A stretch of DNA of 32,593 nucleotides from Frankia torreyi (GTDB lineage: Bacteria > Actinomycetota > Actinomycetes > Frankiales > Frankiaceae): positions 11,145-43,737 of the forward strand of contig NZ_JYFN01000025.1 of assembly GCF_000948395.1 (NCBI RefSeq). Direction: 5' to 3'. This document shows positions 26,974 through 31,284 of the stretch, piece by piece. Position 1 is the stretch's first letter; every line of letters starts with the position of its first letter. The notes under the pieces are model-generated. The model made no database searches, was not told the origin of the DNA, and saw only the letters and a list, made by a program, of their open reading frames with translations. Both the position numbers and the translations under genes were made by a program.

Positions 26974-28167
26974 ATGAGCAAGGCGTTGGCGCTCGGCCTG
27001 CCCACCGCGATGGTGTCGGCCGCGCTGTACGGGGTCGCGCCGCTGGTGCAGGCGCGGGCCGCCCGGCGCGAGGAGGAGAGTTCCGGCCTGGGGCTGGGAC
27101 TGCTGGCCCGGCTGGTGCTGCGCCCGTTGTGGCTGCTCGGGCTCGCCGTCGAGGCGGCCTCGTTCCTGCTGGAGGTCTACGCCCTCTCGGTCGCGCCGGT
27201 GGCGATGGTCGCCCCGGTGATGGCCCTCGATATGATCATCTTCACGTTACTGGCCCAGCGGGTGCTCGGTGAACGGATCAGCCTGACGGGCTGGCTGGGC
27301 GTCGGCTCGATGGTCGCCGGGGTCGGCCTGCTCGCCTACGCCTTCGCGCGCCGTGCCGAGGTCGGCAGCGCGGCCAGCACGGACGTCCTGCTGGCCTTCC
27401 TCGTCCTCGGCCTGATCTTCGCGCTGGTGTGCGCGTTCCTTGCGAACGTCGCCGCCGCCCGGAACATGATCGCCGGCGCGGCGTTCGGATTCGGCGCGGC
27501 CGCCGGCGTCTGCTATGCGATCGCCACCCTCGCGACCCGTCAGATCGGCCTGGCGGTCAACGATCGCCGCGAGGGCCAGTCCGCGCTGGCCGACCTGCTC
27601 ACCACCCCGACGCCGTACGTCCTCGTGCTGTTCTCCGTGCTGGCGCTCGGTCTGCAGCAGCGCGGGCTGCAGGGCCGGGCGGCGGTGATCGCCTTCCCCG
27701 TGACCAGCGGGGTGTCCGCCTTCCTGCCGGTCACCCTGGGGCTGACGCTGTTCGGCGAGCCGGCCCCGGACGGCGCCCATCGGGTGGCGTTCATCGTCGC
27801 GATGGTGATGGTGGCCGCCGGCATCGCCGCCCTCGGGCGCGACCGGATGGCGGCCAACCGTTCCGTGGACGAGCTGGAGGGCGCCGCGGCGCGCCCCGAC
27901 GGGCCGGATCCAGGCCGCCCGGATCGGGCCCGGCCGGATTCGAAGCGGGCTGATTCCGACCGGCTGGACCCGGAGCGGCTGGACCCGGAGCGGGTGGACC
28001 TGGAACGCGTGGACCTGGAACGCGTGGACCTGGAACGGGTCGATCCGAGGCGCTCCGAGCGGGTGGACTCCGACCTCGGGCGGCGTTCTCGCCACGGCGA
28101 CGACCCGTGGAAGCCACCGGGCCGGGGAGACGGCGGGCCTGGCGCCGCGCTGCGGGAACTCGGCTGA
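26974..28167 (+). CDS. DMT/EamA-like multi-pass permease with repeat tail
   Basis: This 397-residue protein has about nine to ten membrane helices in the first 290 residues (ALGLPTAMVSAALYGVAPLV, SVAPVAMVAPVMALDMIIFT, VLLAFLVLGLIFALVCAFLA, AFIVAMVMVAAGIAAL). The pattern fits the drug/metabolite-transporter superfamily. The last 100 residues are charged and disordered, with six pentapeptides LDPER/VDLER (330-359). The ATG at 26974 has AGGA about 9 bases upstream. It lies 255 bp after the glycosyltransferase on the same strand, so it may belong with the sugar operon, for example as an exporter or flippase, but the gap leaves this open. Confidence 0.87.
   Translation: MSKALALGLPTAMVSAALYGVAPLVQARAARREEESSGLGLGLLARLVLRPLWLLGLAVEAASFLLEVYALSVAPVAMVAPVMALDMIIFTLLAQRVLGERISLTGWLGVGSMVAGVGLLAYAFARRAEVGSAASTDVLLAFLVLGLIFALVCAFLANVAAARNMIAGAAFGFGAAAGVCYAIATLATRQIGLAVNDRREGQSALADLLTTPTPYVLVLFSVLALGLQQRGLQGRAAVIAFPVTSGVSAFLPVTLGLTLFGEPAPDGAHRVAFIVAMVMVAAGIAALGRDRMAANRSVDELEGAAARPDGPDPGRPDRARPDSKRADSDRLDPERLDPERVDLERVDLERVDLERVDPRRSERVDSDLGRRSRHGDDPWKPPGRGDGGPGAALRELG
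27961..28050. repeat. 15-bp tandem repeat, 6 copies, inside the permease gene
   Basis: Six 15-bp units of the form CGGCTGGACCCGGAG or CGGGTGGACCTGGAA encode LDPER or VDLER in the cytosolic-looking tail. Confidence 0.93.
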
Positions 28168-28370: not shown

Positions 28371-29153
28371 TCAGGGTAGCCGCGGGACGGGCCGGAGCAT
28401 CGCGGGATGCAGCACCGTGGCGTCGCCCCGGCGGTACAGCTCCGCGGGCCGGCCGCCGTCCCGGGTCGTGAAGCGCCCGGTCGGGACGAGGAAGTCCGCG
28501 GTCCCGGTCACCTTGCGGTGGAAGTTGCGGGGGTCCAGCCGCGAGCTCCAGACCAGCTCGTAGATCCGGCGCAGCTCCGCCACCGTGAACTCGCCTTCGC
28601 AGAAGGCCGTCGCCACCGCGCTGTACTCGATCTTCGCTCGGGCGCGTTCCAGCCCGTCCGCGAGGATCGCCGCATGGTCGAAGGCCAGCCCGGACCCGCC
28701 GCCAGCGGTCGAGACCGGCTCCCATCGGCTCGCGGCGGCGTCCGTGCCGGCGATCGGCGTGCGCGACTGTGGCGCGAGCGCCAGGAACGCCACCGTGACG
28801 ACCCGCCCGCGGGGATCGCGATCCGGCGCGCCGTAGGTCGCGAGCTGTTCGAGATGCGCCGGCGGGTGGCGTAGCCCGGTCTCCTCGGCGAGCTCCCGCA
28901 CGGCCGCCTCGGCCAGATCCTCCCCCGGCCGGACGAAGCCGCCCGGCAGGGCCCAGCGGTCCCGGTAGGGCTCGATCCCGCGGCGCACCAGCAGCACCTG
29001 GAGCTGCTCCTCGCGGACTGTCAGCAGGACCAGATCGACGCTGAGCGCGACCGGCACGACGTCCGGCGGCAGCCTGCCCGCTGCGCCGCCGCCGTTGGCG
29101 TGGGCGGTCGTGGCGGCGGATGACTCCAGTGGGGACGGCATGCGGGGAACCAT
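28371..29153 (-). CDS. NrtR-like Nudix-domain regulator/hydrolase
   Basis: This 260-residue protein has an intact Nudix box, G72-x5-E78-x7-REL-x-EE-x-GL94, within WALPGGFVRPGEDLAEAAVR. A C-terminal winged-helix-like part follows at about 175-235 (AFCEGEFTVAELRRIYELVW, DPRNFHRKVTGTADFLVPTG). This is the architecture of NrtR, a regulator of NAD metabolism whose Nudix domain binds ADP-ribose or related ligands. Because the catalytic box is complete, it may also hydrolyse such ligands. No convincing ribosome binding site precedes the ATG at 29153 or the one at 29141; the mRNA may be leaderless. It is divergent from the SPFH/NAD-kinase-like pair, and two matching palindromes fill the gap. That suggests it represses itself and the pair. 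Confidence 0.9.
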   Translation of the reverse strand: MVPRMPSPLESSAATTAHANGGGAAGRLPPDVVPVALSVDLVLLTVREEQLQVLLVRRGIEPYRDRWALPGGFVRPGEDLAEAAVRELAEETGLRHPPAHLEQLATYGAPDRDPRGRVVTVAFLALAPQSRTPIAGTDAAASRWEPVSTAGGGSGLAFDHAAILADGLERARAKIEYSAVATAFCEGEFTVAELRRIYELVWSSRLDPRNFHRKVTGTADFLVPTGRFTTRDGGRPAELYRRGDATVLHPAMLRPVPRLP

Positions 29154-29154
29154 A

Positions 29155-29171
29155 CTCGTCAGGTTGACGAG
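29155..29171. promoter_or_regulatory. Putative NrtR-like operator, copy 1
   Basis: Perfect palindrome CTCGTCA-GGT-TGACGAG. It begins 1 bp upstream of the Nudix gene's ATG. Its core TCGTCAGGTTGACGA (29156-29170) matches copy 2 at 13 of 15 positions. Confidence 0.7.
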
Positions 29172-29185
29172 AACTGCGATCCCGG

Positions 29186-29208
29186 TTTATCGTCATGTCG
29201 ACGATAAA
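29186..29208. promoter_or_regulatory. Putative NrtR-like operator, copy 2
   Basis: Perfect 9-bp arms TTTATCGTC and GACGATAAA with a 5-bp spacer; the core is TCGTCATGTCGACGA (29190-29204). The centre is 34 bp from that of copy 1. It directly abuts the ribosome binding site of the SPFH gene, so binding here would block that operon. Confidence 0.72.
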
Positions 29209-29222
29209 GAGAGGACCTTCTC

Positions 29223-30263
29223 ATGGCGGACATCAGCCGGGCGCCGTTCCTGTGCCACCTGCGGGGCACCCCCACCGCGTACATCCGCCACCAGCGCGGC
29301 ACGGCCGTCGCCCACGAGGGTGTCGGCCTGGTCTTCTGGTATCGGCCGCGCACTGCGGTGATCAGTGAGGTGCCGGTCGACGACCGGGAGCTCGCGGTGC
29401 TCTTCCACGCGCGGACCGCCGACTTCCAGGACGTCGCGGTGCAGGCCACCGTCACCTACCGGATCGCCGACCCGGTGCTGGCCGCCACCCGCCTCGACTT
29501 CGGTATCGACCCCGAGCTCGGCACCTGGCGGGAGAAGCCCCTCGACCAGCTCGCCGGGATGATCAATGAGTCTGCCCAGCAGTACGCCTCGGACCTGCTC
29601 GCGCGCACGTCGCTCACCACCGCCCTCGCCGAGGGGGTGCCGGTCATCCGGGCGCGGGTGACCGACGGCCTGCGCGCAGATGCCCGCCTGGTCCAGACGG
29701 GGGTGAGTGTGGTCGGGGTGCGGGTGGTCGCCGTCCGCCCGTCGCCGGACGTGGAGAAGGCGCTGCGCACGCCCACCCGCGAACAGATCCAGACCGAGGC
29801 CGACCGGGCCACCTACGGCCGCCGCGCGCTCGCAGTCGAGCAGGAGCGGCGCATCGCCGAGAACGAGCTGCAGAGCAAGATCGAGCTGGCCGTGCGAGAG
29901 GAGCGGCTCGTGACCCAGGAGGGCGCCAACGAGCAGCGCCGGATGACCGAGCAGGCGGCGGCGGCGCGCATCGCCGCCGCAGCGGAGGCGGAGCGGGCCG
30001 AGACGGCCGCCCGCTCGCAGGCCGAGCGGGTTCGGGTGGAGGCGGCGGCGCGGGCCGAGGCCGTGCGTCTGGTCGGGCAGGCTGAGGCCGACGCCGAGGC
30101 GGCCCGGGTCGCCGCGGTCACCGGTCTGGACACCTCGGCGGTGGTCGCGTTGGCGGTGCGGGACCTGGCTGACCATCTGCCCGCGATCGGGGCGCTCACC
30201 ATCACCCCCGACGTGGTCACCGAGGCGGTCGCCCGGTTCGCCCGCGCCGGCACCCCTCGGTGA
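29223..30263 (+). CDS. SPFH/Band 7 domain protein
   Basis: This 346-residue protein has an SPFH domain at about 25-185: [20 protein letters not shown], then [20 protein letters not shown], and [21 protein letters not shown] long Ala/Glu/Arg-rich coiled coil follows at about 195-285. No membrane helix is seen, unlike most stomatin-type proteins, so it may be a soluble or peripherally attached scaffold. AGAGAGGA lies 7-8 bases before the ATG. Its stop overlaps the start of the NAD-kinase-like gene as GTGA. The pair should therefore be made together and possibly interact. Confidence 0.92.
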
Positions 30264-31183
30264 GCCTCGCCCCGCGCGCGGTGCTCGTGCACCGACGCAC
30301 CGAGTACGCCGAATTGCTGGACCGGCACGGCACCCGCGGCCAGGCCGCGTTCTTCCTGGCCACCCGCGGGCGGGAGCTGGCCGAGGTGCAGGCCGCCCAC
30401 GATGCCGCCGAGGCGGCCCGTCGGTCGGTCGCCGCGGCGATCCCGCCGCACTGGCGTCGCGGCGAGGTGGAGCGGTCCGACCTCGACCGGTTCCTGTTCG
30501 CTCCGGATGACGTGGTCGTCTGCGTCGGACAGGACGGGCTCGTCGCGAACGTCGCGAAGTACCTCGACGGCCAGCTCGTCCTGGGGATCAACGTCGAACC
30601 GACCCGCACGCCGGGTGTCCTGGTCCGGCACGCCCCGGGAGAGGCCGCCGCCCTGCTGCGCGCCGTCGAGGGATCGCCTGCGGACCCCGCCCGGGGGCTT
30701 GGTCGCCTGCTGCGCGAACTGACCATGGTCGAGGCCCGCTCCGACGACGGCCAGCGCCTCGTCGCGCTCAACGAGGTCTACGCCGGCCACCCCGGCCACC
30801 AGACCGCCCGGTACCGGTTGCGGGTTCCCGGCGGGGGCGCCCCGGTGACCGAGCGGCAGGCGTCATCCGGGCTGCTCGTCGGCACCGGCACCGGTGCGAC
30901 GGGCTGGTGCCGCTCGGTGTGGGCGCAGCGGCGCAGCGAGCTTTCGCTCCCGGCGCCGACCGCCGGCGCGCTGGTCTGGTTCGTCCGCGAGGCATGGCCG
31001 TCACCGGCCACGGGCACCACCTGCACCGAGGGCCGCCTCGCCGGGCCGGCGCGGCTGGAGATCCTGGTGGAGGCCGATCGGATGGTCGTGTTCGGCGACG
31101 GCATCGAGACGGACACGATCGAGCTGTCCTGGGGGCAGCAGCTCACCGTCGGCGTGGCCGATCGTCGCCTACGCCTCGCCTAG
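30260..31183 (+). CDS. NAD kinase-like protein (ATP-NAD/diacylglycerol kinase superfamily)
   Basis: This 307-residue protein carries degenerate NAD-kinase motifs in the right order: [20 protein letters not shown] (the GGDGT region, residues 86-104, with Gln in place of the second Gly and Leu for Thr), [11 protein letters not shown] (109-119), ALNEVYAG (169-176, the NE motif) and [11 protein letters not shown] (206-216, like TPTGSTA). An extra N-terminal part of about 80 residues precedes the fold. It may phosphorylate NAD or bind NAD without catalysis; the altered GGDGT leaves this open. The GTG start overlaps the SPFH stop. The link to an NrtR-like regulator supports an NAD-related role. Confidence 0.87.
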
Positions 31184-31186
31184 CAC

Positions 31187-31250
31187 GCACCTCGACGACG
31201 GTGCACCTCGACGACGGTGCACCTCGACGACGGTGCACCTCGACGACGGT
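31187..31250. repeat. 16-bp tandem repeat, 4 exact copies, after the NAD-kinase-like gene
   Basis: GCACCTCGACGACGGT is repeated four times without change, beginning 4 bp after the stop codon. Each unit junction can form a small stem GCACC/GGTGC. The period is not a multiple of three, so the array would be incompatible with variable coding. Confidence 0.97.
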
Positions 31251-31284
31251 GCGCCCCGACTGTCAGCCGCGGCGGCGAGCCCGG

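Follow-up and report, generated by a model that had tools for sequence, protein, structure and literature searches.

Predicted twin operators of an NrtR-type Nudix regulator upstream of an SPFH and NAD-kinase-like operon in Frankia and other actinobacteria

Two near-identical palindromes lie where a Nudix gene and an SPFH gene diverge (leftward and rightward, respectively) in a stretch of 32,593 nucleotides from Frankia torreyi (hereafter the window). Sequence comparison makes it very likely that these are twin operators of an NrtR-type repressor, encoded by the adjacent Nudix gene, that would control its own gene and the SPFH operon. Four comparative lines carry this reading, namely conservation, overlap with promoter elements, migration of the motif together with the regulator gene, and a link to NAD genes in Streptomyces; from them we infer that the protein binds as a dimer, that it represses and which effector it senses. 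A repressor dimer on operator 1 would cover the -35 element of the SPFH and NAD-kinase-like operon and adjoin the -10 element of the repressor's own leaderless gene, and a dimer on operator 2 would cover the -10 element of the SPFH operon together with its start site, so that occupancy of both would shut the two transcription units together. ADP-ribose or another NAD-derived nucleotide, acting at the Nudix domain, would probably release the repressor. An anonymous Nudix gene of many actinobacteria would in this way gain a predicted role as an NAD-sensing repressor, along with a defined operator and promoter geometry, and the uncharacterised SPFH/NAD-kinase-like operon would gain its first regulatory context.

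The palindromes and the divergent promoter

Site 1 (TCGTCAGGTTGACGA, 29156-29170, centre 29163) and site 2 (TCGTCATGTCGACGA, 29190-29204, centre 29197) have the same base at 13 of 15 positions, and each lies within a longer perfect palindrome (Table 1). The original prediction is confirmed on these points and on the distance of 34 bp between the centres. It had also placed each palindrome in contact with a gene start, which does not hold: site 2 ends 14 nt upstream of the SPFH ATG, and site 1 is about 13 nt from the Nudix start if this is at 29141, as is probable, and not at 29153. TCGTC-N5-GACGA occurs twice in the window, both times at these sites (0.12 expected). When the 7.6 Mb genome was ranked with a motif model built from 54 sites, the two palindromes took the first two places. 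The third-ranked site (L001, 14.6 bits) is within a response-regulator gene and was rejected as a further target, as were two other single matches (L002 and L005), neither of which the motif model reports at E 10. The predicted operator of the Nudix orthologue group can be defined as TATCGTC-N5-GACGATA.

Table 1. Features of the Nudix/SPFH locus, in window coordinates.
Feature	Coordinates	Strand	Remarks
NrtR-type Nudix regulator, 256 aa	28371..29141	-	Nudix domain, intact catalytic box and NrtR winged helix
-10 hexamer TATGGT, Nudix gene	29149..29154	-	7 nt before ATG at 29141
Operator 1 (predicted)	29155..29171	.	Perfect palindrome CTCGTCA-GGT-TGACGAG; 18.3 bits, second best in genome
-35 hexamer TTGACG, SPFH operon promoter	29164..29169	+	Within operator 1; promoter scan, 74/76 loci
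Operator 2 (predicted)	29186..29208	.	Inverted repeat TTTATCGTC-ATGTC-GACGATAAA; 22.5 bits, best in genome
-10 hexamer TATCGT, SPFH operon promoter	29188..29193	+	Within operator 2; promoter scan, 74/76 loci
SPFH/Band 7 protein, first operon gene	29223..30263	+	Pfam Band_7; operator pair upstream in 68/80 homologues
NAD-kinase-fold protein, second operon gene	30260..31183	+	Start overlaps SPFH stop

A generic promoter scan over 500 bp returned TTGACG-18-TATCGT as its sole pair. In 74 of 76 loci TAnnnT follows TTGAC at a spacing of 17 or 18, and other distances in the range 10-29 are almost never seen. When 80 loci are compared, site 1 is nearly always extended to TTGACGA and site 2 starts with TATCGTC; these extra conserved bases are not alike between the two sites, and fit the -35 and -10 hexamers, respectively. 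Operator 2 probably also overlaps the point at which SPFH transcription begins, and operator 1 directly adjoins the -10 element of the Nudix promoter on the opposite strand. The simplest account of the 34-bp spacing is that the operators are built onto the -35 and -10 elements. The original prediction recognised the pair and its spacing, but missed this overlap, which explains the spacing.

As TTGACG and TATCGT, 17-18 bp apart, are part of the repeats, these could be conserved only as promoter elements and not as sites for a regulator. This is extremely improbable, since the matching other halves (TCGTC before the -35 and GACGA after the -10) are nearly invariant and would be left unexplained, and since pncB and the unlinked Nudix gene of other genomes are each preceded by a lone full palindrome (see below). 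Furthermore, three named Streptomyces loci have site 2 shifted about 10 bp downstream while the promoter spacing is constant. The same shift is seen in G057 and G227, and in all of these loci the -35/-10 spacing is preserved by means of another TATCGT. Three Catenulispora loci have lost the second site and retain a TACCGT -10 element. Chance was rejected together with pure promoter conservation, on the flanking halves and the unlinked copies.

Operators that lie over the -35, -10 and start region are in the classic position for repression, and the NrtR relatives tested so far are mostly repressors (PMC6800001). It is thus very improbable that the Nudix protein is instead an activator bound at the -35 element, and repression is the preferred reading for both transcription units. 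On the Nudix side, 70 of 76 orthologues have TAnnnT ahead of an in-frame start at a distance of 5-9 nt, which in 65 of these is 6-7 nt. This distance suggests that the Nudix mRNA is probably leaderless and starts at 29141, and not at the 29153 of the longer open reading frame.

Conservation and co-migration with the regulator gene

The original prediction expected the palindromes to be conserved upstream of orthologues, and this is found within the family, across actinobacteria and before unlinked Nudix genes. Both palindromes, exactly 34 bp apart, are present at each of the family's 17 close Nudix orthologues that adjoin an SPFH gene, and they are absent from all 13 Nudix paralogues without an SPFH neighbour. 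In an unbiased search for palindrome pairs across 396 genomes of the phylum, 10 gave matches, seven of them directly upstream of SPFH; six of these seven belong to one genus of another family, taken as Streptomyces, a label that for some scanned genomes comes from named loci. A protein-based scan then covered 80 named SPFH loci, from Frankia, Streptomyces, Kitasatospora, Mycobacterium/Mycolicibacterium, Kribbella, Nocardioides, Micromonosporaceae, Catenulispora and others. The site pair is present upstream in 68 of these (48 with two perfect sites and 20 with a near-perfect pair), while seven loci have one site and five have none. The near-perfect pairs carry 1-2 mismatches, and two of the 20 are paralogue-like in site 2. 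Of the 68 paired loci, 53 have a spacing of 34 bp and nine one of 33 bp. Two distant Nudix-SPFH pairs (L047 and L048, Nudix about 40% identical) have a palindrome of approximately GGGC-N5-GCCC with the same 5-nt centre, suggesting that regulator and operator changed together.

The motif also follows the regulator gene when this is located elsewhere. SPFH and the Nudix gene are not neighbours in Streptomyces, where the best match to the latter is at another position (67-69% identity over the matched part). In 7/7 genomes one copy of TTATCGTC-N5-GACGACTATGATC immediately precedes the ATG of this unlinked orthologue, and further Streptomyces genomes likewise have a single motif copy in the promoter of the unlinked orthologue. 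In the Kitasatospora, Catenulispora and Plantactinospora genomes examined, the unlinked orthologue has one site just before its own -10 element, and in two Phytohabitans the motif precedes it with 1-2 mismatches. Three searched genomes without the motif at SPFH (two Hamadaea and one Frankia MAG) lack the orthologue and have paralogues only. One Streptosporangiaceae genome (L295) is an exception, in that operators are present at SPFH and were not seen in front of the regulator gene. The unlinked genes are taken as orthologues on the grounds of best match, the recognition residues and the operator they share; in the gene tree, orthologues are not cleanly split from three paralogues (support 0.0) and deep support is weak, and the tree carries no weight in the argument. 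Together, conservation, co-migration and promoter overlap support the proposal that the palindromes are operators of an NrtR-type autoregulator.

Nudix paralogues are present in these genomes, including one near pncB in this Frankia genome, and the palindromes could be operators of such another regulator, with the adjoining Nudix gene merely a target. In some Streptomyces, site 2 is altered to a paralogue-like GTC-N5-GAC, which suggests that paralogues may bind there. As an account of the palindromes in general this is improbable, since the motif goes with whether and where this orthologue is found and not with the paralogues, the Streptomyces paralogues have their own half-site TATAGTC, and the recognition residues of the paralogues are not the same. 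The adjacent Nudix protein is thus retained as the predicted regulator. The alteration itself is seen upstream of SPFH in seven Streptomyces loci (L139, L160, L164, L165, L171, L179 and L189), where site 1 keeps TCGTC or nearly so and site 2 reads TAGAGTC, TATAGTC or TATGGTC followed by N5-GAC, like the site before a Nudix paralogue of the same genome. These seven may represent capture of one operator by a paralogue.

The Nudix regulator and its relatives

The Nudix gene encodes a full-length NrtR homologue, in line with the NrtR-like autoregulator that had been suggested. Its product matches PF00293 (NUDIX, 76.9 bits) and PF21906 (NrtR_WHD, 46.8 bits), both over the cut-off, and aligns over nearly its full length to NrtR of Shewanella oneidensis (3gz5, residues 22-224, E 5.6e-31). 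Every orthologue scored, whether linked or unlinked, has an intact Nudix box (GX5EX7REXXEEXG); relatives in Phytohabitans and Streptosporangiaceae are without an intact box. A PADLOC match to the defence family PDC-S07 (Nudix domain, E 3.2e-06, 51 residues) was set aside as a generic Nudix match. Against the NCBIfam equivalog NF050029 (ADPR-responsive NtrR repressor) the protein scores 128.9 bits, below the threshold of 400 bits; it is related to that family and is not that equivalog.

In the winged helix, R205, H208 and T212 show little or no variation among 67 orthologues, and are mostly P, R and L in paralogues. The segment D203-P-R205-N206-F-H208-R209 aligns with the mycobacterial-type segment that matches D167-x-T169-N170-x-x-R173 of NrtR from Mycobacterium smegmatis (MsNrtR), in which D167, T169, N170 and R173 are required for DNA binding (PMC6800001). 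Several paralogue promoters carry TATAGTC-N5-GACTATA (core TAGTC-N5-GACTA). The correlation of recognition residues with operator between paralogues and orthologues is consistent with a change of specificity, and the paralogues, with their TAGTC sites and three differing winged-helix positions, would provide a natural test of such a change in this family.

Among characterised relatives, MsNrtR (MSMEG_3198) shares the combination of Nudix domain and winged helix, a divergent promoter with a palindrome, and an association with NAD metabolism; it is an autorepressor that is released by ADP-ribose (PMC6800001). However, its operator is GTTTTCGA-N7-TCGAAAAC, unlike the TCGTC-N5-GACGA found here, it controls nadABC, and its Nudix box is degenerate (PMC6800001), whereas that of the window protein is intact. 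Mycobacterial genomes with the present orthologue also hold a separate MSMEG_3198-type gene, 36-39% identical to the window protein, which adjoins nadA with the published operator in those same genomes. Identity with the mycobacterial NrtR was rejected on this coexistence and the different operator. The distinction from the characterised mycobacterial NrtR had been missed in the original prediction.

The recognition segment of the S. oneidensis protein (3gz5, 3gz6) is also unlike that of the window protein. AraR of Bacteroides thetaiotaomicron (5bs6, E 2.9e-25) is likewise an NrtR-family repressor, but it senses L-arabinose, controls a sugar regulon and has an impaired Nudix box (PMC4666351). 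NdnR of Corynebacterium glutamicum, likened here by description, is as in the present case an NrtR-family regulator of an actinobacterium, and NAD+, in place of ADP-ribose, is its reported effector (PMC6800001; PMC4666351). NrtR motifs vary widely (PMC4666351), and a new operator would thus be an expected kind of novelty; the motif itself may have an earlier mention in Streptomyces. Taken broadly, the NrtR family includes the window protein, which has a predicted operator and recognition residues of its own and, unusually, an intact Nudix box.

NAD genes and the predicted regulon

The second gene of the SPFH operon encodes an NAD-kinase-like protein. It has a profile match to human NAD kinase 2 (E 1.1e-13), and its AlphaFold model (pLDDT 88.8) matches NAD kinases in Foldseek (7r4l, E 6.1e-18). 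The GGDG motif is GQDG or GPDG, and NE and GTGTGATGW are conserved. The predicted NAD-kinase fold supports an NAD-related effector. No described SPFH/Nudix or SPFH/NAD-kinase operon in actinobacteria was found in the literature searched.

Sites at NAD genes, also anticipated by the original prediction, are found in Streptomyces but not at nadA and pncB of this Frankia genome. The motif is upstream of Streptomyces nadA and pncB in 7/7 genomes, usually as 2-3 palindromes before nadA, some with an altered outer base, and as one palindrome before pncB. The Frankia nadA and pncB promoters are without the motif, and both genes were rejected as further targets; the NAD effector is for this reason derived from the family and from the NAD-kinase-like target. 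The predicted regulon thus varies by lineage, being the SPFH and NAD-kinase-like operon only in Frankia, with nadA and pncB added in Streptomyces. GTC-N5-GAC sites of another type are found in Frankia nadA promoters. These are TTAGAGTC-N5-GACCATT-like (L240, L241, L242 and L244-L246), doubled in L244 and L245, and are probably operators of a Nudix paralogue.

A wider scheme can be drawn only tentatively, and is on balance doubtful. In it, the NrtR-type repressors of one clade would have retained a working ADP-ribose hydrolase and would thereby destroy their own inducer. Across actinobacteria they may gate a module at the membrane that makes NADP, formed by an SPFH scaffold and an NAD-kinase-like enzyme, and in some Streptomyces paralogues whose recognition residues have shifted may be starting to capture one of the two operators.

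Additional sites are seen in individual Streptomyces genomes. Two strong ones of about 18 bits, situated upstream of genes, are 6 kb apart in one genome (L227 and L228; G057 C1:439068 and 445507). In three Streptomyces genomes (L223, L224 and L225), ATATCGTC-N5-GACGATAT-like sites are beside mutually similar proteins (VRLVPQDPEWL..., VTVRLLPQDPEWL...), which are a possible further target. Two tandem repeats are also present in the window. The first has a 15-bp unit in 5.3 copies (27961-28040) and encodes (VDLER)n within the tail at the C-terminus of a DMT/NIPA-like membrane protein; the second, just 3' of the stop of the NAD-kinase-like gene (31187-31260), has the 16-bp unit GCACCTCGACGACGGT in 4.6 copies.
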